From Cryobacterium sp. Y82 (GTDB lineage Bacteria; Actinomycetota; Actinomycetes; Actinomycetales; Microbacteriaceae): DNA of 64,000 nucleotides. How positions within the stretch are numbered: position 1 is the first letter of the stretch; every line of letters starts with the position of its first letter. The position numbers and the translations under genes are program-made. Of this stretch, positions 2,981 through 30,824 are shown one piece after another. Below the pieces are notes generated by a model. It saw only the letters and a list, made by a program, of their open reading frames with translations. It was not told the origin of the DNA and did not search any database. Location of the stretch: assembly GCF_002929495.1 (NCBI RefSeq), contig NZ_PJJJ01000037.1, forward strand, positions 62,001 to 126,000. The letters are read 5' to 3'.

Positions 2981-4015
2981 GTGACAGATATGGGCGTGAT
3001 GAATACAGGCACGACACACATCACCGTGTTGCAATCCTTGAGCCCGCCCGACGGCACCACCCGGTACGTCAACCAAGTGGTCGAGGGGGCGCCCGATGCG
3101 GTGACCATGCGCTTCTTCACCTGGCGCACCGCGCTGCTCGGCCGCTACGACGTTCTTCACGTGCACTGGCCGGAGTTACTCATTCGCGCGCCGCGCCCTG
3201 TGAAGGCACGGCTGCGACGCGGGGCGCTGTACGCGCTGCTGCTGCGGGCCCGGCTGCAGCACATTCCTATTGTGCGAACCATGCATAACCTGGCCCCGCA
3301 CGAAGCCGGCGCGGGTGCCGAGACCCGCGCTCTCGACGCGCTCGACGCACGCACGGCGCTGGTCATCCGCCTGAACCCAACCACGCCTGTGGAGCCCGAA
3401 TCCCGGGCGGTCACCATTCTGCACGGCCACTACCGTGACCGCTTCAGCGACATGCCGCGGCCCGATTCGATCAGTGGGCGCATCCTCTATTTTGGGCTCA
3501 TTCGCCCGTATAAGGGCGTCGAGACCCTTCTGCAGGTGTTTCGGGCGCTGCCGGGACCGGACCTGACGCTCCGCGTTGTGGGGCGGCCATCGAGCGGTCT
3601 CGGCGAGATCATCACGGCCGAAACCGCACAGGATGCACGCATTAGCTCGGTGCTGCGCTTCGTCTCCGACGAAGAATTGGTGGTCGAAGTCGGCGGGTGC
3701 GAGCTGGTCGTGCTGCCTTACCGCGAAATGCATAATTCCGGGGTATTGCTCGTGACGCTGTCGCTCGATCGCCCGGTGCTCGTGCCGTCGACGCCCTCGA
3801 ACCGGGCCCTAGCCGACGAGGTCGGGCCCGATTGGATCTACCTCTACGACGGCGAGCTCACGCCGGAGATTTTACGCGGCACCCTCGAGCGGATGCGCGC
3901 CGCCGGCTCCCCCCCGCGCCCGCGGCTCGACGATCGGGACTGGAATACCCTCGGCCTGCAGAGTTATCGAACCTACCTGCGGGCGCTGGAACTGGCCGGG
4001 CGGAGCATCCGTTGA
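2981..4015 (+). CDS. Glycosyltransferase, GT-B fold (GT4-like)
   Basis: A 344-residue protein. The N-terminal half has the motif VLHVHWPE, common in GT4-like and GumI-like mannosyltransferases, and HGHYRDRF follows in mid-protein. The C-terminal half has a nucleotide-sugar domain with ILYFGLIRPYKGVETLL and a P-Y-R-E segment (LPYREMHNSG) where GT4 enzymes carry donor-binding residues. It probably adds one sugar to a lipid-linked repeat unit at the inner membrane face; the sugar cannot be read from sequence. Several starts are possible (GTG 2981, ATG 2990, ATG 2999), none with a strong ribosome site. Its stop overlaps the next start (TTGA). Confidence 0.8.
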   Translation: MTDMGVMNTGTTHITVLQSLSPPDGTTRYVNQVVEGAPDAVTMRFFTWRTALLGRYDVLHVHWPELLIRAPRPVKARLRRGALYALLLRARLQHIPIVRTMHNLAPHEAGAGAETRALDALDARTALVIRLNPTTPVEPESRAVTILHGHYRDRFSDMPRPDSISGRILYFGLIRPYKGVETLLQVFRALPGPDLTLRVVGRPSSGLGEIITAETAQDARISSVLRFVSDEELVVEVGGCELVVLPYREMHNSGVLLVTLSLDRPVLVPSTPSNRALADEVGPDWIYLYDGELTPEILRGTLERMRAAGSPPRPRLDDRDWNTLGLQSYRTYLRALELAGRSIR

Positions 4016-6963
4016 CCGCGACGCTTCCGCCCGATGCGCCCGAAACACCTGAGCGGCCCGAGAAGCCACGGTCCACCGCCGGCCTGGGCCGCACCGCCGG
4101 ACGCGGCGCGTCGACGACACTGGTCGGCCAGCTCATCCGCATCGGCGTGCAGCTCGGCGGCATCGTCGTGCTTGGCCGACTGCTCGACCCGAGCGACTAT
4201 GGTCTGGTCGCATCGGTCGCCGCGATCATCGGCGTCGGCGAAGTGCTGCGTAACTTTGGGCTGTCGTCGGCCGCCATTCAGGTGCGCGACCTGAGTCGGC
4301 ACCAAAAAAACAACCTGTTTTGGATCAACAGCCTGATCGGGCTTGCGCTCATGCTGCTGGCGGTGCTCTGCAGCCCGCTCATCGCTACCCTGTACGGCGA
4401 CGACCGGCTCGTGCTCCTCACCCAGGTGCTCGCGGCCACCTTTCTGCTTAACGGCCTTGCCACCCAGTTTCGTGCAGACCTAAACCGCAATTTTCATTTC
4501 AAGGCCCTCGCCGGGTCGGAGATCGGAGCCCAGGTCGGTGGCCTCGCCATCGGCATCGCGATGGCGCTGAACGGTTTCGGCTACTGGGCCCTCGCCGGGC
4601 AGCAGATCAGCCAGGGCATTCTGACCATCCTCATTCTCATCCCAGTCACCCACTGGTTTCCCGGCTGGTATCACCGCACCGCGCCGATGCGTCACCTGAT
4701 CATGTTCGGGTCGAACCTGGCTGGCACCCAACTGCTCGGCTACGCCAGCCGCAACACGGACTCGATCGTGATCGGCGCGACCCTCGGTGCCGGGCCGCTC
4801 GGGCTGTACAACCGCGCGTTCCAGCTGCTGCTGCTGCCGCTCAACCAGATAAACGGACCATCCACCCGGGTGGCCCTGCCCGTGCTGGCTCGATTGCAGG
4901 ACGACCCGCCCAAATACGACCGGTTCATTCTGCTCGGGCAGACCATCATGCTGCACGCGGTCACCATCGTGCTCGCTTTCTCCTGTGCCCAGGCCCTGCC
5001 GATCATCAGCATCGCCCTCGGCAGCAACTGGCTCGGCTCCGCCCCGATTTTTCAGATCCTCGCCATTGCCGGGTTCTTCGAGGCCGCCGCCTACGCGACC
5101 TACTGGGTATTCCTGTCGAAGGGCGTTACCAAGCAAAACCTGTATTTCGCCCTCGCCACCCGGCCGCTGCTCGTCGTGTTCGTGCTGGTCGGCTCACTCT
5201 GGGGCGTTTACGGCGTGGCTGCCGGGTATTCGATCGGCGTTGCGCTGATCTGGCCGATCGGTCTGTTGTGGATCAGCCGGGTCACAACGGCGCCAGCGCG
5301 CGCCATGTTCCTGGCCGGCGTACGCGCCATTCTCGGCTATGGCTTCGCGACCGGTATCAGCTGGTCCGCCGTGCAGTGGATTCCGGTCGACCTGCCGTTC
5401 GCGCGCGTCGCGCTCGGCGGTGTCGCCCTGCTCGCGGCGATCGGCCTGGTCATGCTGGTCTGGCCGACCTTTCGCCGGGATGTGCGCTCGATCGCCCAGG
5501 CCCGAAGCTTTCTGCGCTCAGCGAAGTCGTCGAAAGACGGCAACGTCGACGCGACCGTCGACACCGACCAGCTAACGCCCACCCACCCCCCCACCCGTGC
5601 CCGAAAAGTGGGGCGCACACGCTTGCGCATAATCCGCCGGCTGGACCGGGTGGTGCACGGCTTGGCCGCAGCATCCACTGTGCCCTTCCTGCGCGATCGT
5701 GCCGCTCTGAAACGCGCGACCAACCGACTGCGCCCGTTCGACGCGGGCACAGAGCGCGCTCACGTGCTCGTCGCCCCGCCCGGCGAGGGCAATATCGGTG
5801 ATCAGGCCATGGTCGAAGCCTTTCTCGAAAATGTGACGGGACCAGTACAGGTACTCGTGCGGCGGCCGACCGACGTGCAAATTCCGTCGCAGCACGCCTG
5901 GCGGGCGCAACTCGTTCCGATTCCACACCTCATCTACGGAAAGGGGCCGGCGCACCGGCAGGCCATGGCAATGCTGGCTCCCGTACTGGGCGGCGCCCGG
6001 TCACTGAGCGTGATCGGCGCCGACATTATGGACGGCGCGTACAGCGTGCGTGCCTCCGCCCGCCGAGCGGATGTTGCGAGTCTGGCGCGCAGCGTCGGCG
6101 TCGAAGCGCGCATCCTCGGCTTCAGCTGGAACGGCCACGCCAACGTGGGAGTGCGGCGGTCGCTCGCGCGGGCCGGCCGTATGGGAACGCGGTTACAACT
6201 GCGTGACCCCGTCTCCAGCGCGCGCGCCCGCGCCGATCGATTCGACACCGTGGTCGACGTCGCCGATGCCGTGTTCGCGGCCCGGACCAACTCCGCCCTC
6301 GCCGTAACGGAATATCTCGGAGCCACGCCGGCCCGCTATGCCGTCGTAAATGCCAGCGCTCTGGTCGGCCGCAGTTTCGACCAGACCACAGAGTACGCCC
6401 GGATCGTGACGGCGCTGCTGGAGGCGGGGCTTCAGGTGGTACTGCTGCCGCACGTCGTGCGCACCAGCGGTGACGACGCTGCCGCCTGCCGGGCCGTGTT
6501 CGATCGGTTGACGCAGACTGATCGTCTGGCCCCGACAGACCGAGTGACCGATTCCCGCGTTGTTTTGGTGAATCGCTTGCTCACCCCGGCCGAAGTGCGC
6601 GGGTTGTGTGCCGGCGCCGAAATCGTACTGACCGGCCGCATGCACCTCGCCGTGCAGGCCATGTTCCACGGGGTGCCTGCCGTCGCGCTGTCCACCCAGG
6701 GCAAGGTCGCGGGCATGATGCGGCTTTTTGACACGCAGGAACTGTGCGTCGAGCCGGGCGTCGGCCTGGCCGGACGCATGATTCCGGTGGCGTTATCGGT
6801 GCTGGCCGATCGGGAGAGGTATCGCGACCGGTTGGCTGCGCGGCTGCCCGAGGTTCAGCGCCTGGCCGCCCTGAACTTCTCGGGCTTGCCGAGTGCTACG
6901 CATACCCATCCTTTTACCCTCACGGCCCCGAGCCCGACTTCCCACAGACAAGGCCCCGCATGA
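4012..6963 (+). CDS. Fusion of Wzx-type flippase and polysaccharide pyruvyl transferase
   Basis: The reading frame is open without a break for 983 codons from the TTG at 4012, which overlaps the previous stop. Upstream in-frame starts lie inside the neighbour and are rejected. Residues about 30-500 form a MOP-superfamily polysaccharide flippase with many transmembrane helices (N-terminal GRLLDPSDYGLVASV is typical). A basic linker with a Pro/Thr-rich patch (about 505-575) leads to a pyruvyl transferase domain: PPGEGNIGDQAM near 588 and the hallmark TGRMHL near 874-879. The flippase would export the lipid-linked unit and the second domain would add pyruvate ketals from phosphoenolpyruvate on the cytoplasmic side. 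I know these as separate proteins; fusion is unusual. The stop overlaps the next ATG (ATGA). Confidence 0.83.
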   Translation: MTATLPPDAPETPERPEKPRSTAGLGRTAGRGASTTLVGQLIRIGVQLGGIVVLGRLLDPSDYGLVASVAAIIGVGEVLRNFGLSSAAIQVRDLSRHQKNNLFWINSLIGLALMLLAVLCSPLIATLYGDDRLVLLTQVLAATFLLNGLATQFRADLNRNFHFKALAGSEIGAQVGGLAIGIAMALNGFGYWALAGQQISQGILTILILIPVTHWFPGWYHRTAPMRHLIMFGSNLAGTQLLGYASRNTDSIVIGATLGAGPLGLYNRAFQLLLLPLNQINGPSTRVALPVLARLQDDPPKYDRFILLGQTIMLHAVTIVLAFSCAQALPIISIALGSNWLGSAPIFQILAIAGFFEAAAYATYWVFLSKGVTKQNLYFALATRPLLVVFVLVGSLWGVYGVAAGYSIGVALIWPIGLLWISRVTTAPARAMFLAGVRAILGYGFATGISWSAVQWIPVDLPFARVALGGVALLAAIGLVMLVWPTFRRDVRSIAQARSFLRSAKSSKDGNVDATVDTDQLTPTHPPTRARKVGRTRLRIIRRLDRVVHGLAAASTVPFLRDRAALKRATNRLRPFDAGTERAHVLVAPPGEGNIGDQAMVEAFLENVTGPVQVLVRRPTDVQIPSQHAWRAQLVPIPHLIYGKGPAHRQAMAMLAPVLGGARSLSVIGADIMDGAYSVRASARRADVASLARSVGVEARILGFSWNGHANVGVRRSLARAGRMGTRLQLRDPVSSARARADRFDTVVDVADAVFAARTNSALAVTEYLGATPARYAVVNASALVGRSFDQTTEYARIVTALLEAGLQVVLLPHVVRTSGDDAAACRAVFDRLTQTDRLAPTDRVTDSRVVLVNRLLTPAEVRGLCAGAEIVLTGRMHLAVQAMFHGVPAVALSTQGKVAGMMRLFDTQELCVEPGVGLAGRMIPVALSVLADRERYRDRLAARLPEVQRLAALNFSGLPSATHTHPFTLTAPSPTSHRQGPA

Positions 6964-8192
6964 CACTCTCCGTGCAGACCCCGCCCGATTACGCGCGCGA
7001 GCATCCCTCGCTCCACCGCATCCTCTTCGTTATTCCGTCATTGCATGGTGGGGGGGCAGAATTCGTGGCCCGCACCTGGATGGGCTGGCTCGCCGACCAG
7101 GGCTACGAGGTGGCTGTCGTGCTCACCTCCGCTGAGGTGAAGCCGGAGTACCTGCCCGATGGTGTCGCGTCTTTCTCTCTATCCGGGCAACGCGGGCACC
7201 TGCAGAAGGCCACCGCACTGCGGCGCCGCCTGCTCGACTGGCAGCCCGACGTGGCGATATCGCTGCAGGCCCACCCGAACCTGGTGCTGCTGACGGCTGC
7301 TCACCTGATGCCAGCACGCCTGCGCCCCCGCGTGCTCGTGAGTGAACGCAACCTGGTGTCGCTCGGGCTGCCCGGATCGAATCTTGCCCACCGGGTGAAA
7401 ATCTGGTTTGCCAAGCGCCTGTATCCGTGGGCCGACCACGTGATCGCCATTTCGCATCCGGTCGCCGCTGAGATGATCGCGGCTTTCGGAGTGCACGGTG
7501 ACCGCATCACCGTCGTCGCCAACCCCGCAACGGCGAAACTACGCGGCACCCGGCGCGGGCAGGGCACGACGGGAGCGCACGTCCAAGTCGGGGGCGACGA
7601 CGGCACGGAACTCGTCGAGCCGGGGGGAACGACGATCGTGGCGCGATCCGAACGCCGTCCAGGATCAGCCAATGGCATTCAGATCGTGCTGGCCTGCCGG
7701 CTCGTGGCGCAAAAGCGGCCGCTGCTCGCCATCGCGGCCGCCGCCGAGCTCGCCCGTCGCGGCATCGTCGTCGAGGTCGTCTCGTTCGGCGGCGGTCCGC
7801 TGCTCGACGACGTACAGGCCGCAGCCCGGCAGGAAAACGTGACCTTTCACCATCGCGGCTGGGTCGAAAATTGGTTCGACCACTTCGGCGATAACTCGGT
7901 GGCACTGCTTACCTCAAGCCGGGAGGGTTTCGGCAACGTGCTCGTTGAAGCGGCCGCAGCCGGCTACCCCTCGGTTGCCGTTTCGGGGGCCCTCGGGGTA
8001 GCGGATGCGATTGTGCCCGGCATCACGGGCGAACTCGCGCTGTCCGCGCATCCAGCGGACCTTGCCGACGCCATTCTGCGGGCGGTGGATCTCCCCCTCG
8101 AGCACATCGAGCCCTGGCTGGCTCGTTTTTCGGAGGAAGCGAGCGGCAGCGACCTGGAACGGGTCTTGCTTCGGGTCGTGGAACGCGCATGA
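6960..8192 (+). CDS. Glycosyltransferase family 4
   Basis: A GT-B enzyme of 410 residues starting at the ATG that overlaps the previous stop. The N-terminal domain shows FVIPSLHGGGAEFV (about 22-35). The C-terminal domain shows LACRLVAQKRPLL and SSREGFGNVLVEA near residue 320, the E-x7-E donor-phosphate motif of GT4 enzymes. Between NPAT and the second domain is an insert of about 45 residues rich in Gly, Arg and Thr, longer than the usual linker. It probably builds the repeat unit of the polysaccharide in this operon. Donor and acceptor are unknown. It is coupled to the next gene by an ATGA overlap. Confidence 0.87.
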   Translation: MTLSVQTPPDYAREHPSLHRILFVIPSLHGGGAEFVARTWMGWLADQGYEVAVVLTSAEVKPEYLPDGVASFSLSGQRGHLQKATALRRRLLDWQPDVAISLQAHPNLVLLTAAHLMPARLRPRVLVSERNLVSLGLPGSNLAHRVKIWFAKRLYPWADHVIAISHPVAAEMIAAFGVHGDRITVVANPATAKLRGTRRGQGTTGAHVQVGGDDGTELVEPGGTTIVARSERRPGSANGIQIVLACRLVAQKRPLLAIAAAAELARRGIVVEVVSFGGGPLLDDVQAAARQENVTFHHRGWVENWFDHFGDNSVALLTSSREGFGNVLVEAAAAGYPSVAVSGALGVADAIVPGITGELALSAHPADLADAILRAVDLPLEHIEPWLARFSEEASGSDLERVLLRVVERA

Positions 8193-9238
8193 GAATCTTC
8201 GCTTCGGCTATGGGCCAGATCGATAACGTCGGCGATACCGTGCTGCGACGGGCCTTTCTCGATGCACTTCGAGGCGCCGGCGAACTGCAGGTCTTCGTCG
8301 GGGCCCGATCGGACTTTTACCTGAGCGGGCTCGGCCTGCACGACGAAGACCGGGTGTACCGCACCAACGCAGAATGGCGGCGCGAGATTTCGCGATCGAC
8401 TCTGCGGGAGGCATCCGTTTACGCCTTCAACGCCGGCGAAATGGAATTGCAGCGCGCCTATGCTCTGCGCTATCTGCGCCTCGCGCCCCACCTCGCGCTC
8501 AACCGGCTGCGCGGCGGGCATGCCGTACACGCCGGGTTCGGCGTGCGGCAGAAGACGGGCTGGCGCATTCCGGTGGCGGCGACACTGCGCCTGTGCGACC
8601 TCGTGGCCTGGCGTGACGCCTACAGCCGCGGCACAATGGGCCTGGGCCGCATCGCTCCCGACTGGGCCTTCGCTACGGGGGCAGAAGATGCCGATCTGCT
8701 CGCGTCAACCGCTTCTCGCCCGCTGCTGGCCGTGTCGGTGCGCTACAACGGGCGGCGCCCCGACGACACGTGGCTGGCGGCACTGCGCGGCCTGGCCGAT
8801 ACCCTCGAACTCGAGATCGTGACGGTGTCACAGATCGAACGAGACGGGCCCCTCGCCGAGGAACTGGCCGTCAAGCTCGGCGGCACGGCGCTGGTCTGGG
8901 ACGGTCCTGACCATCTCGCTCAGGAGCAGAAACTACGGGCGGTCTACCAGCGGTCACTGCTCGTGGTGAGCGACCGGCTGCACGCTGTCGTGATCGGCCT
9001 GAGCGAGGGCGCGCTGCCGCTCGTGATCGCCGATGCTGCCCAGTCGAAGGCGGCTCGCACCCTCGACGCGGTCGGCATCAAGGGCGCCACGATCGGCTGG
9101 ACTCTGCCCGACCCCGCGGCACTCGACCGCCGGGCGCGCGACGTGATCAGCCGCCGGGAGCCGATTCTGCGCCACGTCGTCGAGGCGCGCGCTTCCCTAC
9201 GGGAGCTGACCCGTTCTATTGAAAAGCTCACCGCATGA
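8189..9238 (+). CDS. Polysaccharide pyruvyl transferase family protein
   Basis: A 349-residue protein with the family's N-terminal motif (GQIDNVGDTVLRRAF, residues 9-23) and the C-terminal SDRLHAVVIGLSEGALP near 265. These enzymes add pyruvate as a ketal to sugar hydroxyls using phosphoenolpyruvate, giving the glycan negative charges. It resembles the product of 15951-17051 more than the fused domain at 5.7-6.9 kb. Both neighbours overlap it by four bases (ATGA), so translation is coupled within the operon. Confidence 0.83.
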   Translation: MRIFASAMGQIDNVGDTVLRRAFLDALRGAGELQVFVGARSDFYLSGLGLHDEDRVYRTNAEWRREISRSTLREASVYAFNAGEMELQRAYALRYLRLAPHLALNRLRGGHAVHAGFGVRQKTGWRIPVAATLRLCDLVAWRDAYSRGTMGLGRIAPDWAFATGAEDADLLASTASRPLLAVSVRYNGRRPDDTWLAALRGLADTLELEIVTVSQIERDGPLAEELAVKLGGTALVWDGPDHLAQEQKLRAVYQRSLLVVSDRLHAVVIGLSEGALPLVIADAAQSKAARTLDAVGIKGATIGWTLPDPAALDRRARDVISRREPILRHVVEARASLRELTRSIEKLTA

Positions 9239-10239
9239 CCGGGGCACACGTGGCGGGTTCGCCGGTTGTCAGCGTCATCCTACCGGCCTACAACGCCGCC
9301 GAGTTTCTGGAAAGCGCCATCGAACGACTCCTGGCCCAAACCATCGACAATTTCGAGATCATTGTGGTCGACGACGGCTCAACGGATACGACGGCTTCGA
9401 TCGGCCTGCGAGCGGCTGCAGCGCACGCCGCCGTTCATTACTTTCGCCAGGAGCAGAACGGCGGCGTCGCGCGGGCGAGGGCGCGGGCGGTGGCCGAGAG
9501 TCGGGGCGAGTTTGTGTGGTTCGTCGATTGTGACGACGAATGGGCGGACTCTGCGCTGGAGAAGCTCGTAGCGGCGGCCAGGTCTACGGGCGCCGACGTG
9601 ATCGTCTGCGGTGCGATGTATGTCTACTCCGGCCAACAGCGCCCGTTGGTTGCGCCACTTGTAAACGATCCGATCACCGGCGCAGAGGCTTTTGTGCTGC
9701 TGCTCGACGGCAAGCTGACCGGGCATCTCTGGAATAAGTTGTTCCGCCGTTCTCTCACGAAGGAGATCGAGTTCACCCCGACCCGGGTGCATTCCGACTT
9801 GGCCATGGTGGCCCAACTGCTCGCCGCCGCCGATCGCGTGGCGTTCATCAGCGACTCTCTCTATTCCTATGTTGTGCGTGGTGGGTCGATCATCCGCTCG
9901 GGGTTGCGCCGAGCCGAGTCGCTTCTGCTGGTGGAGCAGGCCATCACGAACGCGGCGATCACCCTGGATACCCGCATCATCGGTTCTAACTCGTACGGCT
10001 ACTTTCGGCTGCGCTACGTGCTGCTCTCCGGGCTGAAGGACGCGCTGACCGGGCCGTACGATGCTGAAGAGCGGGACGAGATCGTCTCCGAATTGCGTTC
10101 CCGCCTGACCTGGCGCCTCATACTGTTAGCCGCGCGCCGGCGCGATTGGAAACGACTAGCGCTGGCGGGCACGGCAAAGCTGAGCATTCCGCTGCATCAT
10201 CAGTTGCTGCGCCTGGCCGCCAAGCAGGGTGCCGCCTGA
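9235..10239 (+). CDS. Glycosyltransferase family 2
   Basis: A GT-A enzyme of 334 residues. VSVILPAYN (12-20), VVDDGST (44-50) and the metal-binding FVDCDDE (96-102) are the standard GT2 signatures. There are no strong membrane helices, so it is probably a soluble or peripheral enzyme. It starts at an ATG overlapping the previous stop and is the last gene of the rightward operon. The C-terminal third is basic and may contact the membrane. The sugar donor cannot be told. Confidence 0.88.
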   Translation: MTGAHVAGSPVVSVILPAYNAAEFLESAIERLLAQTIDNFEIIVVDDGSTDTTASIGLRAAAAHAAVHYFRQEQNGGVARARARAVAESRGEFVWFVDCDDEWADSALEKLVAAARSTGADVIVCGAMYVYSGQQRPLVAPLVNDPITGAEAFVLLLDGKLTGHLWNKLFRRSLTKEIEFTPTRVHSDLAMVAQLLAAADRVAFISDSLYSYVVRGGSIIRSGLRRAESLLLVEQAITNAAITLDTRIIGSNSYGYFRLRYVLLSGLKDALTGPYDAEERDEIVSELRSRLTWRLILLAARRRDWKRLALAGTAKLSIPLHHQLLRLAAKQGAA

Positions 10240-10748: not shown

Positions 10749-10853
10749 AGACGAATCTTCACCCGGCTATATGCGACACGGCACCGCCAGCATCCGCGCA
10801 GAATCGCGCCCCAGCTGTTCGTTCGCGACCCCGACTCTCCGGAGGACCCCACC

Positions 10854-12380
10854 GTGCCCCTTCTTCGTAACCGTCACCCCCGCAAAGCCCTTTCCCGCAC
10901 ACCCGCCCGCCGCGCCATGCTCGCCGTTGCCGCCTTTACTGCCGTCACCGTCGCGGTTCTCGCGTCGCTGACCATCCCGAGCCCGGGCGGCGAAGCCACC
11001 GCCGCACCCACACCCACAGTTATCGACAGCTCCTCGGCAAAGATCAGCTACACCGGCTCTTGGCGCAGTACGCGTAACGCCGCCGACCGCGGCGGATCCG
11101 TAAAATTTCAGTCCAGTGCGGGCAGCGCGTCGATGACGTTTAAGGGAACCAGCGTCGCCTTCATCACACGCACCACGAAAAGCTCGGGAAGGAGCACCGT
11201 CGCAATCGACGGCAAGGTTGTCGCCACTGTGGACGGCTACTCCTTGAAAACCAAGCACAGGCAGACAGTTTTCAGCACGACGAGCCTGTCGGGCGGCACC
11301 CACACCATCAAGATCAGCCGCACCGGCAAGAGAGACGCTCGCGCGAGCGGCACGAACAGCATCGTCGACGCGTTCGTCGTAAACGCCACGTCCAGGCCAG
11401 CACCAGCACCAGCACCAGCACCAGCACCAGCACCAGTCCTTGCACCCGCGCCGTCGCCGACCGTGCACCGCTACGCCGACTGCCCCGCTGCCACGACGAC
11501 CGTGCACACCGTCGACGAGCTGAGGGAGGCCATCAACCGCGCCCGCCCCGGCACCGTCATCAGAATGGCCCCCGGAACCTATCGCGGTCAGATTGACATG
11601 CACGCCAACGGAACGGCGGCTGACCCGATCTGGGTCTGCGGCCAGCGCGACGCCGTGATCAACGTTGGGAGTATCCAGAAGAACCACGGCATCCAAATCA
11701 AGAATTCTTCTAATCTGGTGATCGCCGGCATGACCGTCACCAACAGCCTCAAGGGCATCAGCGTGATCGGCGGCACGAACGTGACGATCGCCGACACCCG
11801 CGTCGACAACATCGGCTACGAGGGCATTCACCTGCGCGCCTTCACAACCGACAGCACCGTGGTCGGAAATGTCATCTCGAACACCGGAATGCGCAGCGCG
11901 CCCTTTGGCGAGGGGATCTACATCGGTACGTCCGAAAACAATTGGTGCGACCAGACCGATTGCCAGCCCGACCGAACCGACGGCACGCTCGTTCTGGGCA
12001 ATCACATCAGCCTCACCGGGGCCCAGCCGATCGAAGTCAAGGAGGGCACTTCGGACGGCGTCGTTCGCGACAACGTGATCGACGGAGCCAACGGCATGAG
12101 CGCCGCCCAGGAGTGGGTCAAGGTCAAGGGCAACAACTGGATGATCGATGGCAACGCGGGCTCCAACAGCCCCCTGCACGGCTTCGCGGTCAACGGAAGC
12201 GTCGCTGGCTGGGGTCTTCACAACACCTTCACCGACAACTTGGGGGCGGTGAACGCCGGTGGTTACGCCTTCTTCATCCACGAGAAGGGCCGCAAGGGTT
12301 CCAGCGACACGGACGTGTCGTGCTCAAACTCGGTCACCCGCGCCGGAAAAGGGTTGACCAACATCGCCTGCACTCCGTAG
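10854..12380 (+). CDS. Secreted right-handed beta-helix protein with one N-terminal beta-sandwich module
   Basis: The GTG at 10854 has GGAGGA seven bases upstream and gives 508 residues. Residues 1-51 form a long basic signal peptide ending near ATAAP. Residues about 56-178 are a Ser/Thr/Gly-rich beta-sandwich that resembles carbohydrate-binding modules. A Pro-Ala linker (about 181-199) is encoded by a tandem hexamer. Residues from 206 on form a parallel beta-helix with repeated N-x-I/V rungs and paired cysteines (NWCDQTDCQPD), as in polysaccharide lyases, epimerases and depolymerases. Its place inside a polysaccharide locus suggests it trims or modifies that polymer outside the cell. The reaction is not known. 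It is a paralogue of the next gene. Confidence 0.8.
   Translation: MPLLRNRHPRKALSRTPARRAMLAVAAFTAVTVAVLASLTIPSPGGEATAAPTPTVIDSSSAKISYTGSWRSTRNAADRGGSVKFQSSAGSASMTFKGTSVAFITRTTKSSGRSTVAIDGKVVATVDGYSLKTKHRQTVFSTTSLSGGTHTIKISRTGKRDARASGTNSIVDAFVVNATSRPAPAPAPAPAPAPVLAPAPSPTVHRYADCPAATTTVHTVDELREAINRARPGTVIRMAPGTYRGQIDMHANGTAADPIWVCGQRDAVINVGSIQKNHGIQIKNSSNLVIAGMTVTNSLKGISVIGGTNVTIADTRVDNIGYEGIHLRAFTTDSTVVGNVISNTGMRSAPFGEGIYIGTSENNWCDQTDCQPDRTDGTLVLGNHISLTGAQPIEVKEGTSDGVVRDNVIDGANGMSAAQEWVKVKGNNWMIDGNAGSNSPLHGFAVNGSVAGWGLHNTFTDNLGAVNAGGYAFFIHEKGRKGSSDTDVSCSNSVTRAGKGLTNIACTP
11396..11441 (+). repeat. Tandem CCAGCA-type hexamer encoding a Pro-Ala linker
   Basis: About seven near-perfect copies of a six-base unit (CCAGCA) encode alternating Pro-Ala between the beta-sandwich and beta-helix modules. 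The unit is a multiple of three, so copy-number change would alter linker length without a frameshift. The paralogue downstream has only a short version of this linker. Confidence 0.85.
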
Positions 12381-12881: not shown

Positions 12882-14777
12882 ATGTTGTTCCCCCGCATTT
12901 CACGACGTGCCACCATCGCGGCCGTCGCTATCGCCGCGCTGGTTCCGCTCACCGCCGTCATCCCCGGAGGCGTCGCTTCAGCCTCTGCTGCCACGGCTCC
13001 CGCCGGGACCACGGTCGTCGACAGCAACTCCCCTCAGGTGAAATATTCCGGTACCTGGCTCACGACGAGCTCGCCGTCGGACAACGGTGGATCCATCAAG
13101 TACGCCTCGACCACGTCGAGCGCTTCGCTCACCTTCACCGGTTCAACGGTGGCCTACGTCACGCGCATGACCAGCAGCTCCGGCACGAGCGATATCGCCA
13201 TCGACGGCAAGGTTGTCGCCACGGTCAACGGCTACTCGGCCACCGCAAAGTACCAGCAGAGCCTGTTCAGCACCTCGAGCCTTTCCAGCGGAACACACAC
13301 CATCAAGGTCACCCGCACCGGCCAGAAGGATGCGCGCTCCACCGGCACCAGCAGCATCGTCGACGCCTTCGTCACCCTGGCACCTGCCGGGACCACGGCA
13401 CCCGCACCAGCACCAGCCGCCACCTCTCCCATGCAAGCTCCGGCTGGTTCGACCACCTTCGAAGGTGACTCCGCGTCAGTCAAGTACAACGGCACTTGGC
13501 GCACGTCCGGCTCGGCCAGCGACTCGGGCGGCGGAGTTCAGTTCACCACTACGGCGGGCAGCGCCTCGTTCACCTTCCAGGGATCGAGCGTCGCCTTCAT
13601 CACCCGCCTCACCAGCAGCGCGGGCACAAGCACCGTCGCGATCGACGGCACGAACGTCGCCACGGTCAACGGTTACTCTCCAACCACCGCCTACAAGCAG
13701 AACGCGTTCAGCACCACCAGCCTCTCGGCGGGTACACACACCATTACCGTGACCCGCACCGGGCAGAAAGATGCCCGGTCCACCGGTACCAGCAGTATCG
13801 TCGACGCCTTCATCGTGTCGGCCGTGCCGAGCACAGCACCGACCCCGGTTCCGATCAGTACCCACCGCTACGCTGACTGCCCCGCTGCCACCGTCAACGT
13901 GACGACGGCCAGGGAGCTCATGACGGCCGTCTCCCAGGCCCAGCCCGGAACCGTCATCAAGATGGCCCCCGGCACCTACAACGAGCAGATCAATATGACC
14001 GCGAACGGAACGGCCTCCAACCCGATCTGGGTCTGCGGACCGCGCAGCGCCGTGGTCAACGTCGGCAGCATCCAGAACAACCACGGCATCCAGGTCTCCA
14101 ATTCCTCCAACCTCGTGATCGCCGGAATGACCGTCACGAACAGCCTCAAAGGCATCAGCGTCATCCGCAGCAGCAACGTCACCGTCGCGGACACGCTCGT
14201 CGACAACATCGGCTACGAAGGAATTCATTTGCGTGCCTTCACCACCGACAGCAAGGTCGTCGGCAACACGATCAAGAACACCGGCAAGCGCGACCCGTTC
14301 TACGGTGAGGGCATCTACATCGGAACCTCAGACGCCAACTGGTGCGCCCAGACCAACTGCCAGCCCGACAAGACCGATCGCACGCTGCTCATGGCCAACA
14401 ACATCAGCCTCACCGGCGCCCAGCCGATCGAGGTCAAGGAAGGTACCTCCAGCGGCATCATCCGCGACAACATCATCGACGGCGCCAGCGCCATGCCGCG
14501 CGCTGAGGAATGGGTCAAAGTCAAGGGTAACGACTGGAGCACCTACAACAACACGGGCAAAAACAGCACCATGCACGGCTTCGCGGTCAACGGAAGTGTC
14601 GCCGGCTGGGGCCTCCGCAACATCTTCTACGGCAACACCGCCCCGGTCGGCGCCGCCGGCTACGGCTTCTTCATTCACGAGCAGGGAACCAAGGGCACCA
14701 GCGGCACCAAGGTCTACTGCTCGAACACCGTCACGGCTGCCGGGTCCGGTTTTGCTAGCCAGGCCTGTATCTCCTAG
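12882..14777 (+). CDS. Secreted right-handed beta-helix protein with two N-terminal beta-sandwich modules
   Basis: A 631-residue paralogue of the previous gene. Residues 1-37 are a signal peptide. Two copies of the Ser/Thr/Gly beta-sandwich follow (about 42-168 and 185-310), each ending in the pattern GQKDARSTGTSSIVDAF. The beta-helix (about 327-631) is very similar to that of the first protein, including the HRYADCPAAT entry and the AQPIEVKEGTS and HGFAVNGSVAGWG segments. Likely a glycan lyase, epimerase or depolymerase acting on the surface polymer; catalytic residues cannot be named. The end overlaps the convergent GT4 gene by 23 bases. Confidence 0.8.
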   Translation: MLFPRISRRATIAAVAIAALVPLTAVIPGGVASASAATAPAGTTVVDSNSPQVKYSGTWLTTSSPSDNGGSIKYASTTSSASLTFTGSTVAYVTRMTSSSGTSDIAIDGKVVATVNGYSATAKYQQSLFSTSSLSSGTHTIKVTRTGQKDARSTGTSSIVDAFVTLAPAGTTAPAPAPAATSPMQAPAGSTTFEGDSASVKYNGTWRTSGSASDSGGGVQFTTTAGSASFTFQGSSVAFITRLTSSAGTSTVAIDGTNVATVNGYSPTTAYKQNAFSTTSLSAGTHTITVTRTGQKDARSTGTSSIVDAFIVSAVPSTAPTPVPISTHRYADCPAATVNVTTARELMTAVSQAQPGTVIKMAPGTYNEQINMTANGTASNPIWVCGPRSAVVNVGSIQNNHGIQVSNSSNLVIAGMTVTNSLKGISVIRSSNVTVADTLVDNIGYEGIHLRAFTTDSKVVGNTIKNTGKRDPFYGEGIYIGTSDANWCAQTNCQPDKTDRTLLMANNISLTGAQPIEVKEGTSSGIIRDNIIDGASAMPRAEEWVKVKGNDWSTYNNTGKNSTMHGFAVNGSVAGWGLRNIFYGNTAPVGAAGYGFFIHEQGTKGTSGTKVYCSNTVTAAGSGFASQACIS

Positions 14778-15954
14778 CAACACGGTCTGATCGTCGGTCG
14801 AGCGCAGCCTTCCAGCTGCGCTCGACCAACGGAAAGACAGCGGCAGCCGAATAGGCAGCCTCGAAGGCGGATCTGGCCAGATCCGCCTTCTTTGCGCGCC
14901 AGGCGGCATCCGTCATCGCGTGCCGCAGCGCTTCTTCGAGCGAGTCGACGTCGCCGGGTTCCACGATCACCCCCACACCGTTGGCGAGCACGGCCGGCAC
15001 GCCACCGACCCGCGTCGCCACGACACAGTTCCTGCGAGCCATGGCCTCGAGAATGAACATCGGCATGGCCTCGTCGCGAGAGGGCAACACGGCGATCGCC
15101 GAACGCTCGAGCAACTTCATCAGTGCCTCATGGCTGAGCGCCCCCACGAATTCGCCGCGCACCAGCGGTACGGCAGCCTGGTCACCGATGGGGCCGGCGA
15201 TCACCAGTTTCCAGAGCGGAAGCTCCGCCGCGAGCCGCTGCCACGCCGCCACGAGCACGTCGACGCCCTTGCGGGTGCTGACCGCACCACCGAACACCAC
15301 GAGCGGTTCGATGCCGCGGCGCACGCCGTCGGCGACGGCATTAGGCACGAGCACGACCCGCTCCCCCGGCACGAACTCGGCGGCCGCGTCGCGCGACTCG
15401 GCCGACAGTGTCAGCACCACGTCGGCCGCGCGTAGGACGCCCCCAACCAAACCGGGCCGTTTCTCGGCGAAGTCGGTAAAAGAACTTCCGTGCAGTTGAG
15501 CTACCGTGCTAAACCCGCGAGCGTGAGCGAGGGCGAGCAGCGCTCCTTCACGCGCGAAGGAACCCCCCTGCGAGAGGTGCGCAATCACGACGGTTCGCTC
15601 GGGCCGAGCCAGACGCAACACCTTCCAGAAAGCGGATACCGCAAGCACGGCCGCCCGAGCCCCACCACTGCCATCGCGCGAGGAAACCATGCGCAGGTCG
15701 AAATCGGCGAAGGAATGTGCCAGATAGCCGTTGACGACCTGACTCATGCCGCCGGCGACCTCGCCGCTGCGCCCAATATGCACCGCTGTCAGCCGTTCGG
15801 CCGGTGACGCCGCGACAAACGGGATAATCGGAACGAGGGCTGGCCCTGGCGTGGAGGCGGCGCGGGAGGCAGCAACCGCTGCGGCTGATGGCGACACGAT
15901 GGTGATCGGTTCCGTCTCGATCGGGTCGGTATCGCCCGCTTCTGCGAGGCTCAC
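14755..15954 (-). CDS. Glycosyltransferase family 4
   Basis: A 399-residue GT-B protein with an N-terminal extension of about 50 polar and Ala-rich residues. SGEVAGGMSQVVNGYL opens the catalytic part. QLHGSSFTDFAEKRPG follows, and the donor domain has FGGAVSTRKGVDVLV and PSRDEAMPMFILEAMA, the E-x7-E motif. It starts at a GTG that overlaps the stop of the pyruvyl transferase gene, so it is the last gene of the leftward operon. The substrate is unknown. A perfect 28-base palindrome lies inside its 3' end and probably ends transcription of the convergent beta-helix gene. Confidence 0.85.
   Translation of the reverse strand: MSLAEAGDTDPIETEPITIVSPSAAAVAASRAASTPGPALVPIIPFVAASPAERLTAVHIGRSGEVAGGMSQVVNGYLAHSFADFDLRMVSSRDGSGGARAAVLAVSAFWKVLRLARPERTVVIAHLSQGGSFAREGALLALAHARGFSTVAQLHGSSFTDFAEKRPGLVGGVLRAADVVLTLSAESRDAAAEFVPGERVVLVPNAVADGVRRGIEPLVVFGGAVSTRKGVDVLVAAWQRLAAELPLWKLVIAGPIGDQAAVPLVRGEFVGALSHEALMKLLERSAIAVLPSRDEAMPMFILEAMARRNCVVATRVGGVPAVLANGVGVIVEPGDVDSLEEALRHAMTDAAWRAKKADLARSAFEAAYSAAAVFPLVERSWKAALDRRSDRVARRYRPG
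14863..14897 (+). terminator. 28-base perfect palindrome acting as a terminator inside the convergent gene
   Basis: Positions 14863-14890 read GAAGGCGGATCTGG followed by its exact reverse complement, then TTTG. On the plus strand this is a strong hairpin with a short T-rich tail 86 bases after the beta-helix stop. It lies within the coding part of the leftward GT4 gene, encoding the segment around KKADLARSAFEAAY. Confidence 0.6.
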
Positions 15955-17051
15955 CGCGCGGTCTCGCTGGTCAGCACCTGGTCGAGCAGGCGACGCACGG
16001 TGTGTAATTCGTCCTGCGCCTCGGCCAGGCCGGCCAGGATGGCCACGCGGCGGCCGAGCAGGTTCTGCAGTCGTGCAGCGATCTGCGCAGCAGTCAAGCC
16101 CGCGCTGACAATGCTCACATCGTGCAGTCCGGCGGCCGCGAAGTGCCGGGCAATCTTGTCTGACTTTGCGTTGACGAGGAGCGCGGCCGGGACCGCTCCC
16201 TCGGTGAGGGCGCCAACGAGCACGTGTAGGCGGTCACTGACGGCGAGCGCCGCCCTCCGATACAAGTCACGCAATCGCTGCTCCTGCTCGTCGTGGCCGG
16301 TGCCGTTCCAGCGCAGCGCCTGGCCACCGAGGTCGGCGGCCAGCTGGCCACACTTGGTGTCATCGCGCAGAACCTGGGTGACACACCAGATTTGCAAGCC
16401 ATTGTCGGCCGCGACGGCGCGCACCCCGGCGAGCCAGGCGGCGCTCGGGTACTCGAGGTCGGAGCGCATCGACACCACGAGCACGTCGCGGCGCGCCGTG
16501 CCGCTTGAATCGGCACCGCTGCTGGCACCTGCGAAGGCCAGGTCGGGCATGATGCTGCCCCGGCCGAGATACCCGGCCGTGGCTGCATCCCGCCACAACG
16601 ACACGTTCGACAGCGCGATCGAGGGTCCCATCAGCGCACGCGGCAGCGGCGCGAAGTTGCGGCTGCCCACGCCGACCCGGGCGACTCGGCCGTGCCGGGC
16701 GCGCACGAGTGCGAGCACCGGCAGCATGGCGAGGTGCTCTTTCATGCCGACCACGGTCAGTTGAATCTCGCCGGGTTTGAAGACGTACGAGGCCTGGCCG
16801 CGGGCCGCGCTGCGAAGCGCCGCCGCGTACCAGCGCCGAAACGAACGATATTGCACGTCGCCCGAGGTGAGGCCGAGCCCCTCGGCATACCCGTCGGGTG
16901 CCTCGCCGACATAGACGTGCAGCGGGCCGCTCCCCCGTAGCCAGTCGAGCAATTGGCGACGCAGCAAAATGTCGCCGATGTTGTCATATTGGCCGCGAGC
17001 GGGGACAAATATTTCGCGCACCATCCGCTCGGCAGGTGCCCTCTGACTCAT
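15951..17051 (-). CDS. Polysaccharide pyruvyl transferase family protein
   Basis: A 366-residue protein with GQYDNIGDILLRRQLLDWL (20-38) and a C-terminal SDRLHVLVGALTEGAVP, the two family signatures. It is the third pyruvyl transferase domain in the locus and is closest to the product of 8189-9238. It probably adds pyruvate ketals to the polymer made by the locus. It overlaps both neighbours by four bases (ATGA upstream, GTGA downstream). Confidence 0.83.
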   Translation of the reverse strand: MSQRAPAERMVREIFVPARGQYDNIGDILLRRQLLDWLRGSGPLHVYVGEAPDGYAEGLGLTSGDVQYRSFRRWYAAALRSAARGQASYVFKPGEIQLTVVGMKEHLAMLPVLALVRARHGRVARVGVGSRNFAPLPRALMGPSIALSNVSLWRDAATAGYLGRGSIMPDLAFAGASSGADSSGTARRDVLVVSMRSDLEYPSAAWLAGVRAVAADNGLQIWCVTQVLRDDTKCGQLAADLGGQALRWNGTGHDEQEQRLRDLYRRAALAVSDRLHVLVGALTEGAVPAALLVNAKSDKIARHFAAAGLHDVSIVSAGLTAAQIAARLQNLLGRRVAILAGLAEAQDELHTVRRLLDQVLTSETAR

Positions 17052-18103: not shown

Positions 18104-19579
18104 CTACCAGGTGACGCGGGTGGCGGTGACTGATGGGGCAGACTCACTATCAGGCGGGGTCGAACGACTCGAGTCGTTCTTGGCCGCGTCGATCGCTGGG
18201 GTGGCATGAGGCGCCGGGCGGGAAGAGGCTGCGAAGCCGCCGTCACGCACGAGGGCATCGGGACCGCGGGTGGGAACCATAGCCAGCACTACGCCGAGGG
18301 GCGTCGTGCCGACAGCTTTCAGGGCGTCGAAGGCGGCCAGCAGTTCGGGCTCGCGCACCCGGTTAGCGCCGACGACGAGAATGGTGCCGCCGGTCCAGCG
18401 ACTCAGCACGGCTGCGTCCGTCACCGCGAGCACCGACGGGGCGTCGAGGAGCACATAGTCGTAACTGCTGCTCAGCACATCGAGCACCGTGCCCATGGCT
18501 GTCGATCCGAGCAGTTCGCTCGGGTTAGTGGGGATCTTGCCCGACGACAGCACGGTGAGCGGATGCGCCGCGCCCCACGATTGCAGGGATTCCTTGAGCT
18601 GCACGTCGCCGCGGAGCACGTCGGTCAGTCCATGATCGGCGTCGAGTCCGAGGTAGTCGGCCAGCCGGGGCGTGCGCAGGTCGGCGTCGATGACGGCAAC
18701 CGTCGCGCCACTCTCGGCCAGCACGATCGCGAGATTGACGAGCGTGGTTGTCTTCCCCTCGCCCGAAACGGAAGAGGTTACAACGAGGCTGCGGCGGCCG
18801 GTGTCGGCGTCGGCGAAATCAAGGTTGGTGCGCAGCACCCGGAAGGCCTCGGCGCGAGCAGTGGACGCACCGTCGGGCGAGATGATCGCATTGGCGCGGG
18901 CTTCCAGCGGGATACCACCGAGCACGGGAACGACAGTCAGCCGCTCGATGTCGTCGCGGTTGTAGATGCGACGGTCAAGCAGCCCGAGGATCAGTGCGGT
19001 GAGCAGTCCGCCCAGAAGACCGATAAACAACCCGACGGCGAGGTTGAGGTAGAGCTGAGGCAGCGCGGGGTCGTTGGGGGCGACCGCGGGGTCGAGCACG
19101 CCTACTGTCACCGGGCTAGCACCGCCATCGGCGGGCTTTTCCAGCTGGTTGATGACAACGTCGGTGAAACTCTCCGACACGGCCTGCGCGAGCTGCTGGG
19201 CGGCATCCGCTGTGGAGGCGAGAGCGCTGAGTTCGATAACGGCCGAGCCGGGCTGGGTCGTGGCCGTGATCCGCTCGGCCAGGTCAACCGCACTCTCATT
19301 GAGTCCGAGTCTCGCGATCACCGGGTCGAGCACGCGGGGGCTCGTGGCGACGTCGAGGTAGTACGGCAGCTTCTGCACTACGAAGTTATTGCCCTGTACC
19401 AGGTCGCCGGGAGTTGACCCGTTTTGAATCTGCGCGGCGACGAATACGCGGGTGGAAGCCTGGTACTGCACGGGAGTTAGCAGCGCGGCGGCTGCTCCAC
19501 CGACCACGCCGAGCAGGGTGAAAGCAACGATGAGAATCCATCGCTTTCGGAGTATTCGAACCAGCCGTTTCAGTTCCAT
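18104..19579 (-). CDS. Polysaccharide co-polymerase / BY-kinase-like ATPase (Wzz-CpsD fusion)
   Basis: The ATG at 19579 has GGGGAG upstream and gives 491 residues; an ATG further up lacks support. Helices at about 14-34 and 175-200 bracket an outer Wzz domain. The cytoplasmic part has Walker A (SGEGKTTT, near 270), Walker A' (VIDADLRTP, near 300) and Walker B (YVLLDAPSV, near 371). These proteins set chain length and couple polymerisation to export. The C-terminal tail of about 45 residues is Ser/Pro/Asp-rich and has no tyrosine, so the usual Tyr autophosphorylation cluster is missing. It is the first gene of the leftward operon. Confidence 0.87.
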   Translation of the reverse strand: MELKRLVRILRKRWILIVAFTLLGVVGGAAAALLTPVQYQASTRVFVAAQIQNGSTPGDLVQGNNFVVQKLPYYLDVATSPRVLDPVIARLGLNESAVDLAERITATTQPGSAVIELSALASTADAAQQLAQAVSESFTDVVINQLEKPADGGASPVTVGVLDPAVAPNDPALPQLYLNLAVGLFIGLLGGLLTALILGLLDRRIYNRDDIERLTVVPVLGGIPLEARANAIISPDGASTARAEAFRVLRTNLDFADADTGRRSLVVTSSVSGEGKTTTLVNLAIVLAESGATVAVIDADLRTPRLADYLGLDADHGLTDVLRGDVQLKESLQSWGAAHPLTVLSSGKIPTNPSELLGSTAMGTVLDVLSSSYDYVLLDAPSVLAVTDAAVLSRWTGGTILVVGANRVREPELLAAFDALKAVGTTPLGVVLAMVPTRGPDALVRDGGFAASSRPAPHATPAIDAAKNDSSRSTPPDSESAPSVTATRVTW

Positions 19580-19684
19580 GAGCACTTCTCCCCGCATAAT
19601 CGACGCGTCGTGCTTCGGGTGCACGACGACAGGACCCTATGTTGGCATAAAAATCCTCACTTATGGACTGTCAGTCTCGAGGAT

Positions 19685-29341: not shown

Positions 29342-30652
29342 CTACGGACGACCGAGGCCGTGGTAGGTCCAGCCGGCGGCACGCCAGGCTGCGGGGTCGA
29401 GAGCGTTGCGGCCGTCGATCACCGTCTTCGTTTTCACGAGCGCACCGGCCCACACTGGGTCGAGATGCCTAAACTCGGGCCACTCGGTGACGAGCACGAC
29501 GGCATCCGCTCCCCGCAGGGTGTCTTCGAGCGATACTGCGTACTGGAGCTGCGGATGCCGCGCCCGTGAGTTCTCGATGGCCTGCGGGTCAGTCGCCACG
29601 ACGTCGGCCCCCAGTCCGCGCAACTGCACGGCTACGTCGAGCGCCGGCGAATCACGCACGTCGTCGGAGTGCGGCTTGAAACTCAGGCCGAGCACCGCGA
29701 CCTTGGTGTTGTAGACGGAGCCGTCGAGCGCCCCGACGGTGAGATCGACCACACGCTGGCGGCGACGCAGGTTGATCTTGTCGACCTCCTTGAGGAAGGC
29801 CACGGACTCACCGCGTCCCAACTCTTCGGCGCGTGCGGTGAAGGCGCGAATATCTTTTGGCAGGCAGCCGCCGCCGAAACCAACGCCGGCGCCCAAAAAG
29901 CGACGACCGATGCGGCCGTCGTAGCCGATGGCATCCGCCAGCTGTGTCACATCGGCGCCGGTGACCTCGGCGATCTCGGCCATGGCGTTGATGAAGCTAA
30001 TTTTGGTTGCGAGAAACGCATTTGCGGCGACCTTGACGAGCTCGGCGGTAGCATAGTCGGTTACGACGAGGGGGGTGTCGGCGGCGAGCGCCGTGGCGTA
30101 GATCTCGTTGAGCAGCTTCACGGCATGCTCGCCGGGCGCGCCCGCGGCGACCCCATAGACGAGACGGTCCGGGCTGATGGTGTCCTGCACGGCGAATCCC
30201 TCGCGCAGAAATTCCGGGTTCCAGGCCAGCGAGGCCCCACTGCCAGCTTCGATGAGCTCGGCCAGGCGCGCGGCGGTTCCCACCGGCACCGTGCTCTTGC
30301 CCACGACCAGGTCGCCGTCGGACAGATGCGGAATGAGCGATTCGATCGAGGCGTCCACGTACCGCAGGTCAGCACTATAGCTGCCGGGCTTCTGCGGTGT
30401 TCCGACGGCAATGAAGTGCACCTGCGAGCCGGCGGCATCGGCTATGTCGGTGCTGAAACGCAGCCGTCCACTGTTCATGGCCGAGGTCAGAACCTCGGGT
30501 AGTCCGGGTTCGAAAAAGGGGGGCTTGCCGACGGCCAGCTGGGCGATCTTGGCGGCGTCGACATCGATGCCGACGACGTCGTGCCCCAGCTCGGCCATCG
30601 CCGATGCGTGCACGGCACCCAGGTAGCCGCATCCAATGACGGAAATTCTCAT
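29342..30652 (-). CDS. UDP-glucose/GDP-mannose 6-dehydrogenase family protein
   Basis: The ATG at 30652 (GAGAGGA upstream) gives 436 residues. The N-terminal Rossmann motif is VIGCGYLGAVHA, the central part has WNPEFLREGFAV, and the catalytic Cys sits in GFGGGCLPKD near 261. The C-terminal domain has GLSFKPHSDDVRDSPAL. The enzyme oxidises a nucleotide sugar (most likely UDP-glucose) to the uronic acid with two NAD+. UDP-glucuronate would feed the surface polysaccharide and could carry part of its charge. The extra 17 codons to 30703 do not match the family. Confidence 0.9.
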   Translation of the reverse strand: MRISVIGCGYLGAVHASAMAELGHDVVGIDVDAAKIAQLAVGKPPFFEPGLPEVLTSAMNSGRLRFSTDIADAAGSQVHFIAVGTPQKPGSYSADLRYVDASIESLIPHLSDGDLVVGKSTVPVGTAARLAELIEAGSGASLAWNPEFLREGFAVQDTISPDRLVYGVAAGAPGEHAVKLLNEIYATALAADTPLVVTDYATAELVKVAANAFLATKISFINAMAEIAEVTGADVTQLADAIGYDGRIGRRFLGAGVGFGGGCLPKDIRAFTARAEELGRGESVAFLKEVDKINLRRRQRVVDLTVGALDGSVYNTKVAVLGLSFKPHSDDVRDSPALDVAVQLRGLGADVVATDPQAIENSRARHPQLQYAVSLEDTLRGADAVVLVTEWPEFRHLDPVWAGALVKTKTVIDGRNALDPAAWRAAGWTYHGLGRP

Positions 30653-30824
30653 GTATTCCTCTCGGTCATCCCAGAGCATACTGGGCGCGGCACGTCGGCC
30701 CAATTCGGGGGTATCACCGAACGGATGCCGCAGCCCGGCCCGACAAGGTCAGCGCGCCGCCTGCGGGTCAGCGCGCCAGTCAGAGGTGGCGCCCCACCCG
30801 TAGCGGGCGCGGCGAAGCGCGCGA

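Follow-up and report, generated by a model that had tools for sequence, protein, structure and literature searches.

Are the pyruvylation of an exopolysaccharide repeat unit and its flipping across the membrane carried out by a single protein in Cryobacterium sp. Y82, and does the joining of the two steps matter for export? The question is raised by a gene in a stretch of 64,000 nt of this genome (contig NZ_PJJJ01000037.1, positions 62,001 to 126,000, hereafter the window, within which coordinates are counted). An earlier note on the window had described one uninterrupted frame that encodes a Wzx-type flippase and a pyruvyl transferase, two steps normally left to separate proteins, and had proposed that the fusion ties export to completed pyruvylation, as a quality gate. 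We report that this gene, at 4012–6963 on the + strand, is a real, conserved and repeatedly evolved fusion of a GumJ/Wzx-type flippase and a pyruvyltransferase (PvT) domain; from the sequence, both activities are predicted with good confidence.

A flippase and a pyruvyltransferase in one frame

The gene starts with TTG and forms one open frame of 983 amino acids (aa), in which a reading-frame check found no internal stop. Its product matches three Pfam domains, all above their cut-offs: Polysacc_synt_3 (residues 53–344, E 5.2e-73, 246.3 bits versus 23), Polysacc_synt (residues 30–296, E 4.5e-46, 157.9 versus 28.2 bits) and PS_pyruv_trans (PF04230; residues 731–895, E 2.2e-10, 41.3 versus 25.3 bits). 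The first statement of the earlier note was therefore correct. By alignment, the PvT part extends over residues 589–960 approximately, with the motifs GEGNIGDQ and TGRMHL starting at residues 591 and 874. The fused protein is single-copy in the host genome, which contains two additional PF04230 matches, one within the same locus and one elsewhere, and four additional PF01943 matches, all weaker. At the 5' end of the gene, TTG shares bases with the TGA of the glycosyltransferase gene GT4a upstream (2981–4015), and at its 3' end TGA shares bases with the ATG of GT4b, the next gene, at 6960. Overlaps of four bases continue downstream (genes 6960–8192, 8189–9238 and 9235–10239). Given the overlaps on both sides, the fusion is part of a tightly packed operon.

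The same domain order was sought in other genomes, and found. Sixteen of the 57 genus genomes contain a full-length fused frame, without an internal stop in any of them. In one other, that of Cryobacterium sp. Y11 (G034), only the flippase is present, in two (G042, G043) both parts occupy separate overlapping frames, and the remaining 38 gave matches of at most 47% identity, or none. The fusion is thus retained in 16 of the 19 genomes that have a close flippase (at least 61% identity). All three Pfam domains were also found in 35 of 53 database relatives, taken from the 8000 candidates with most words in common, within length limits of 0.55–1.75 times the fused protein; the automatic names of three relatives (P0025, P0027, P0028) already cite both functions. 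Matches over both halves without a stop numbered at least six in a family sample of 398 genomes (two candidates scored per genome), five of them within the genus. At E <= 1e-80, there were five in an order sample of 396 genomes, two of which lie outside the family, and in a phylum sample of 396 genomes the window's own genome was the only one. Because 16 of 57 genomes of the genus and 35 of 53 relatives have it, the fusion is due neither to chance nor to an assembly error or frameshift, and the case of relatives with domains always separate, misassembled here, is ruled out.

Repeated fusion of neighbouring genes

A total of 112 loci and proteins were classed, a few genomes being counted twice (e.g. 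L073 and P0024). Thirty were fused, 23 adjacent in the same order, two adjacent in reversed order and nine apart, whereas 37 had the flippase only and 11 the PvT only, short loci possibly concealing a more distant partner. Duplicates (L062–L072), partial loci (L021, L024, L049), P0001–P0022 and P0043 were omitted. The two functions are therefore mostly separate in relatives, as the earlier note had supposed. Adjacent pairs occur in the Actinobacteria Microbacterium, Quadrisphaera and Rhodococcus, and also in Pseudomonas/Halopseudomonas and Thauera. For same-strand neighbouring separate pairs, the start codon overlaps the flippase stop by four bases in 21 of 27 cases. The ancestral state was probably two neighbouring genes.

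The flippase tree and the PvT tree each required four changes between the fused and adjacent states. A joint tree of 46 rows, built without nine Cryobacterium rows, L073, the long-branched L034 and the reversed and apart pairs, gave a parsimony minimum of four changes between fused and separate, with three fused groups. The first comprises Microbacteriaceae, including Cryobacterium, and the second the Kineococcus-type proteins (P0030–P0035, L100, L101). The third is P0029, on a long branch (0.88), placed with proteobacterial pairs with a support of 100. A single fusion event was ruled out on the joint tree by an approximately unbiased (AU) test (p-AU 7.8e-48), which used a quick tree and a group picked once the single-domain trees were known. 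Related genes seem to have fused at least three times. A Cryobacterium metagenome-assembled genome (MAG) with separate genes (L020) falls inside the first fused group with a support of only 88–93, and the flippase tree does not resolve its position. A later split seems the likelier account of it, but a further fusion is possible.

Other neighbours have fused with the flippase as well. In the relative P0044, a GT4a-like domain (35%) lies in front of the flippase, and in P0045 a GT4b-like domain (52%) lies behind it. These fusions point to a complex for adding the last sugar, pyruvylating and flipping.

The two halves of the protein

The PvT domain (residues 589–960, 5776–6891, + strand) was delimited by Pfam, profile search and alignment. 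A profile of 25 PvT sequences, compared to solved structures, matched best to Pvg1p (5AX7, E 0.0048), through an R-x-H site and the following K. By alignment, D597 (5800–5802) is the counterpart of the acceptor-binding D106 of Pvg1p, R731 (6202–6204) that of R217 in Pvg1p and R148 in CsaB, R876-M-H878 (6637–6645) those of R337/H339 in Pvg1p and R306/H308 in CsaB, and K898 (6703–6705) that of K361 in Pvg1p and K328 in CsaB, all on the + strand; the Pvg1p residues D106, R217, R337, H339 and K361 were placed by alignment, the chain offset being derived from R337. According to the sections of the papers drawn on here and below, R148, R306, H308 and K328 of CsaB contact docked phosphoenolpyruvate (PEP), the CsaB mutants R148Q/K and H308A/R are dead and H308K/S and K328R impaired (PMC10435577), and the D106A mutant of Pvg1p is nearly inactive (PMC10629545, PMC10435577). 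The counterparts of D597, R731, R876, H878 and K898 are conserved in all 54 fused and all 49 separate rows, a count in which P and L rows overlap and which covers rows with more than 250 aligned positions, without P0001 and L062–L072. They are also present in PvTb and PvTc, two other PvT-like proteins of the locus. In Cryobacterium, 120 pairs among 16 sequences of the PvT domain gave a median ratio of nonsynonymous to synonymous substitution rates (dN/dS) of 0.166, and 136 pairs among 17 flippase sequences gave 0.084. By these measures, the PvT half appears intact.

Membership of the CsaB equivalog (TIGR03609) was rejected, at 35.5 bits versus a cut-off of 213.1, as was orthology of the PvT domain to GumL (E 0.003 over 53 residues). 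Single-sequence searches of the PDB gave one chance-level match with the PvT domain and none with the whole protein.

The flippase domain (residues 21–500, 4072–5511, + strand) was assigned to the MOP/PST superfamily by Pfam, hydropathy and identity to GumJ. Flippases of this superfamily have 12–14 membrane helices, and both of their ends are cytoplasmic. Averaged over 69 flippases, the hydropathy profile has 13 peaks, and one extra helix is likely within residues 266–311. The loops alternate in charge, and the stretch that follows the last helix (483–540) contains 13 K/R versus 5 D/E, a pattern from which we infer that both flippase ends are cytoplasmic. The linker (residues 501–588, 5512–5775, + strand, by alignment) ranges from 64 to 126 aa in relatives with a measurable pattern, and its sequence varies too. 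Set beside the two separate genes of L020, it appears to consist of the flippase tail followed by the N-terminal region of the PvT itself. The variability of the linker suits a flexible tether but not a rigid channel.

Proposed pyruvylation before flipping

In the reading that we favour, as moderately probable, the gene encodes a bifunctional protein of the inner membrane, which would carry out the final two steps that an acidic exopolysaccharide undergoes on the cytoplasmic side, decoration followed by flipping. The upstream overlapping GumI-like transferase would probably add the terminal sugar to which the pyruvate is then attached. The flexible linker would tether the C-terminal half in the cytoplasm, where this half would ketalate the repeat unit with pyruvate from PEP, and the GumJ-like N-terminal half would flip the undecaprenyl-linked unit. 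The tether would fix a 1:1 ratio and keep the PvT at the flippase mouth, so that most units would be pyruvylated just before flipping, by kinetic coupling, rather than retained by an absolute gate. What we infer here are the topology, a lipid-linked acceptor, the sugar's identity and the kinetic coupling; the coupling of pyruvylation and flipping is plausible.

PEP occurs in the cytoplasm, and lipid-linked precursors are the substrates of CsaB and WcfO (PMC6801904), which would place the PvT domain well at the inner leaflet before flipping. Other pyruvyltransferases act elsewhere, WbbZ at the polymer end and Pvg1p in the Golgi. Whether xanthan is decorated before or after flipping was not settled in a 2015 review (PMC4443731), and for capsule A of B. 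fragilis there is evidence for pyruvylation before export (PMC6801904). The covalent chain, together with the predicted cytoplasmic side where PEP is found, argues that pyruvylation precedes flipping here too.

Repeated fusions and a conserved neighbourhood fit a functional link of pyruvylation and flipping. Distances in the flippase and PvT trees were correlated for 55 linked pairs (Spearman 0.65; reached by none of 300 shuffles, of which the best gave 0.23), for the 23 adjacent pairs (0.61; 0 of 300) and for 39 pairs among which a single Cryobacterium fusion was retained (0.58; 0 of 300).

Several observations weigh against the decoration-then-flipping reading. The tree-distance shuffles ignore relatedness, and the nine apart pairs gave a correlation of 0.41, which is not significant (reached by 42 of 300 shuffles). 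The Pvg1p segments that align with the GD and RD sites are individually below significance, and the five residues examined exclude the counterpart of CsaB R207, which is also essential. The acceptor sugar cannot be transferred from xanthan, because the PvT is not a GumL orthologue; a search of the genome for the GumK family PF22059 gave no match, but neither did its controls. Finally, the Y11 flippase has no PvT domain and two Cryobacterium MAGs have separate genes, so fusion of overlapping operon genes can be near-neutral.

This last point leads to the alternative that survives best, possible but in our view unlikely: a small indel occasionally joins overlapping neighbours, and the link adds equal expression only. 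The frequent four-base overlap in separate pairs speaks for such a neutral fusion, as do the variation of the linker in length and sequence, the fusions of other neighbours (P0044, P0045) and the cases of split or loss (L020, L021, L017). It accounts less well for three fused groups, two of them with several diverged members, and for the retention of the fusion in most genus genomes with a close flippase.

A strict quality gate, in which the flippase moves solely units pyruvylated by its own PvT domain, is improbable. It could draw on two Yersinia Wzx that flip poorly without the terminal dideoxyhexose, described as "Structure-Specific Triggering" (PMC6436433), and on one Wzx with a cationic lumen for anionic units (PMC3412221). 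Against it stands the flippase that persists in Y11. There, the flippase frame (L017, 7716–9674) has no PvT domain by Pfam, the domain being missing in frame. Its last 24–25 bases are common to the gene end of three of five fused relatives (L002, L004, L014), and not of the two nearest by flippase (L010, L011). Judging by this shared end, Y11 probably descends from a fused ancestor and has lost the domain. The genes around it are retained, and in the Y11 genome (98% complete, a single assembly) no other copy of the domain was found, its PvT-like genes being the two others in the locus. The median dN/dS of the Y11 flippase is 0.075 (16 pairs) versus 0.086 for the others (120 pairs); these pairwise values mix the time before and after the loss, and are no proof of selection since. 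The tail that follows the loss (L017:9507–9677) contains a short tandem repeat that encodes Ala-Thr repeats.

Deletion of gumL in X. campestris also speaks against the gate: pyruvyl content fell from 3.86% to 0.06%, with a xanthan yield of 2.90 versus 3.05 g/100 g (PMC8778909), so a GumJ-type flippase can move unpyruvylated units. Together with the split MAG genes, these results leave the gate proposed in the earlier note without support, and of its idea that fusion ties export to pyruvylation only the functional link stands, not an obligatory one. The flippase may still favour pyruvylated units by degree, in line with the Wzx that strongly prefer units with a terminal sugar (PMC6436433) and the one with a cationic lumen (PMC3412221). 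The single protein, its natural split versions and the Y11 domain-loss strain provide material to test whether flippases sense the completeness of their substrate.

The weakest alternative, that the C-terminal domain has a PvT fold but serves as a substrate-recognition or glycosyl-transfer module, would agree with its distance from the curated CsaB model (35.5 bits versus 213) and with the two further PvT-like proteins of the locus that could pyruvylate, yet it is very improbable given the five PEP and acceptor residues conserved in 103 of 103 rows and the low dN/dS.

An extension of the favoured decoration-then-flipping reading is more tentative, and we hold it to be rather doubtful: the PvT would hand each newly pyruvylated, more anionic unit directly to the flippase entrance, and pyruvate would speed flipping by structure-specific triggering, so that export would be biased to finished units. 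If this were true, the repeated origin would imply that, as a rule, glycans are tailored and flipped in one complex with the last glycosyltransferase.

The surrounding locus

The neighbours on the + strand are a Wzy-like polymerase (1484–2911; Wzy_C E 1.4e-6, below the Pfam cut-off), GT4a (2981–4015; Pfam matches of 22.3 and 20.7 bits, below cut-off, and 48% identity to the gene in GumI position), GT4b (6960–8192; Pfam, with a four-base overlap with the fused gene), PvTb, a second PF04230 protein (8189–9238; Pfam, five PEP and acceptor residues present), and a GT2 glycosyltransferase (9235–10239; Pfam). Single-sequence PDB searches with two neighbouring glycosyltransferases gave weak matches or none. 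On the − strand are PvTc, a third PvT-like protein (15951–17051; a weak CsaB match, E 1.7e-6, and the five residues, with no Pfam match of its own, but the PF04230 match at the corresponding position in Y11 is above the cut-off), a chain-length protein with Wzz and AAA parts (BY-kinase-like, by family match; 18104–19624) and a protein of the UDP-glucose/GDP-mannose dehydrogenase family (29342–30703), a possible source of UDP-glucuronate.

This exopolysaccharide locus thus has three PvT-like proteins (4012–6963, 8189–9238, 15951–17051), all with the five residues, and the polymer may carry several pyruvates. Two similar large proteins (10818–12380 and 12882–14777) appear, by eye, to be secreted repeat proteins with related N-terminal modules. 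Their homologues adjoin the operon in Cryobacterium loci, and they are possible polymer-modifying enzymes. The gene at 24653–26860 encodes an acyltransferase-3 protein fused to an SGNH domain, an architecture known from O-acetylation enzymes. The only two matches to the priming transferase family PF02397 in the host genome lie outside the window (G000:C16:407143-407706 and G000:C24:11736-12305), so the first sugar would be loaded by a distant gene or by another type of enzyme.

Comparison with known systems

Among the titles and abstracts listed in searches of open-licence papers, none dealt with a flippase-pyruvyltransferase fusion, and the words fusion, fused and bifunctional do not occur in the review PMC6801904. 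Control of the pyruvate content of thickening polysaccharides is a possible use. The host belongs to a group of cold-loving bacteria, and the apparent recurrence of the fusion among related genes hints that pyruvylation and flipping work together.

The closest parallel in gene order is the xanthan gum cluster, within which the flippase-only matches in Xanthomonas fall. Locus L048 was recognised as gum by GumK (identified with PDB 2HY7, E 5.8e-254; PF22059) and by its domain order, with a PF04230 protein of 264 aa, a WecG-type glycosyltransferase, an Acyl_transf_3 protein and a priming transferase as further neighbours; the names GumI, GumJ, GumH and GumL were given by position and length (lengths from PMC4443731). 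The window flippase is 48.5% identical to GumJ of L048. In both systems a GumI-like transferase lies directly upstream of a GumJ-like flippase, and a PF04230 protein is present in the cluster. The GumI/GumJ-type pair is side by side in all eight Xanthomonadaceae loci with a flippase match, and a GT4a homologue is directly upstream in L028, L034, L037 and L040 as well. In xanthan the last mannose is added by GumI and pyruvylated by GumL (PMC4443731, PMC9737242). In contrast to the window, flippase and pyruvyltransferase are separate proteins in the gum cluster, with GumK between them, and GumL is only remotely similar to the window PvT (E 0.003), so the shared logic is one of position and role and not of PvT descent. 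None of the other glycosyltransferases of the window clearly matched GumH or GumK (best E 0.010), and blastp of GumK gave no significant match to those window genes that were compared.

CsaB, Pvg1p, WbbZ and WcfO are of the same PF04230-type family, and the PEP residues are shared with Pvg1p and CsaB. They differ in being stand-alone enzymes, as described in the sources cited above, and the window domain is far below the CsaB equivalog cut-off. The Kineococcus-type proteins (P0031, P0032 = L101) have the same domain order, with 43–45% identity, but form a separate fused group and are annotated only as oligosaccharide flippase family proteins.

Among same-family relatives, P0053 (1034 aa) and P0054 (1033 aa) each contain two flippase-matching stretches and are possible tandem double flippases, and P0047–P0051 are fused to a C-terminal phosphotransferase-like (APH, PF01636) domain. 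The latter are reminiscent of the mycobacterial MurJ/MviN, which carries a C-terminal pseudokinase; in Wzt, a C-terminal glycan-binding domain ties export to chain-end modification. As predicted for the fused protein of Cryobacterium, both are lipid-linked glycan exporters with an extra cytoplasmic domain. The domains of MurJ/MviN and Wzt, however, regulate or recognise and do not make the modification, and Wzt is part of an ABC transporter.

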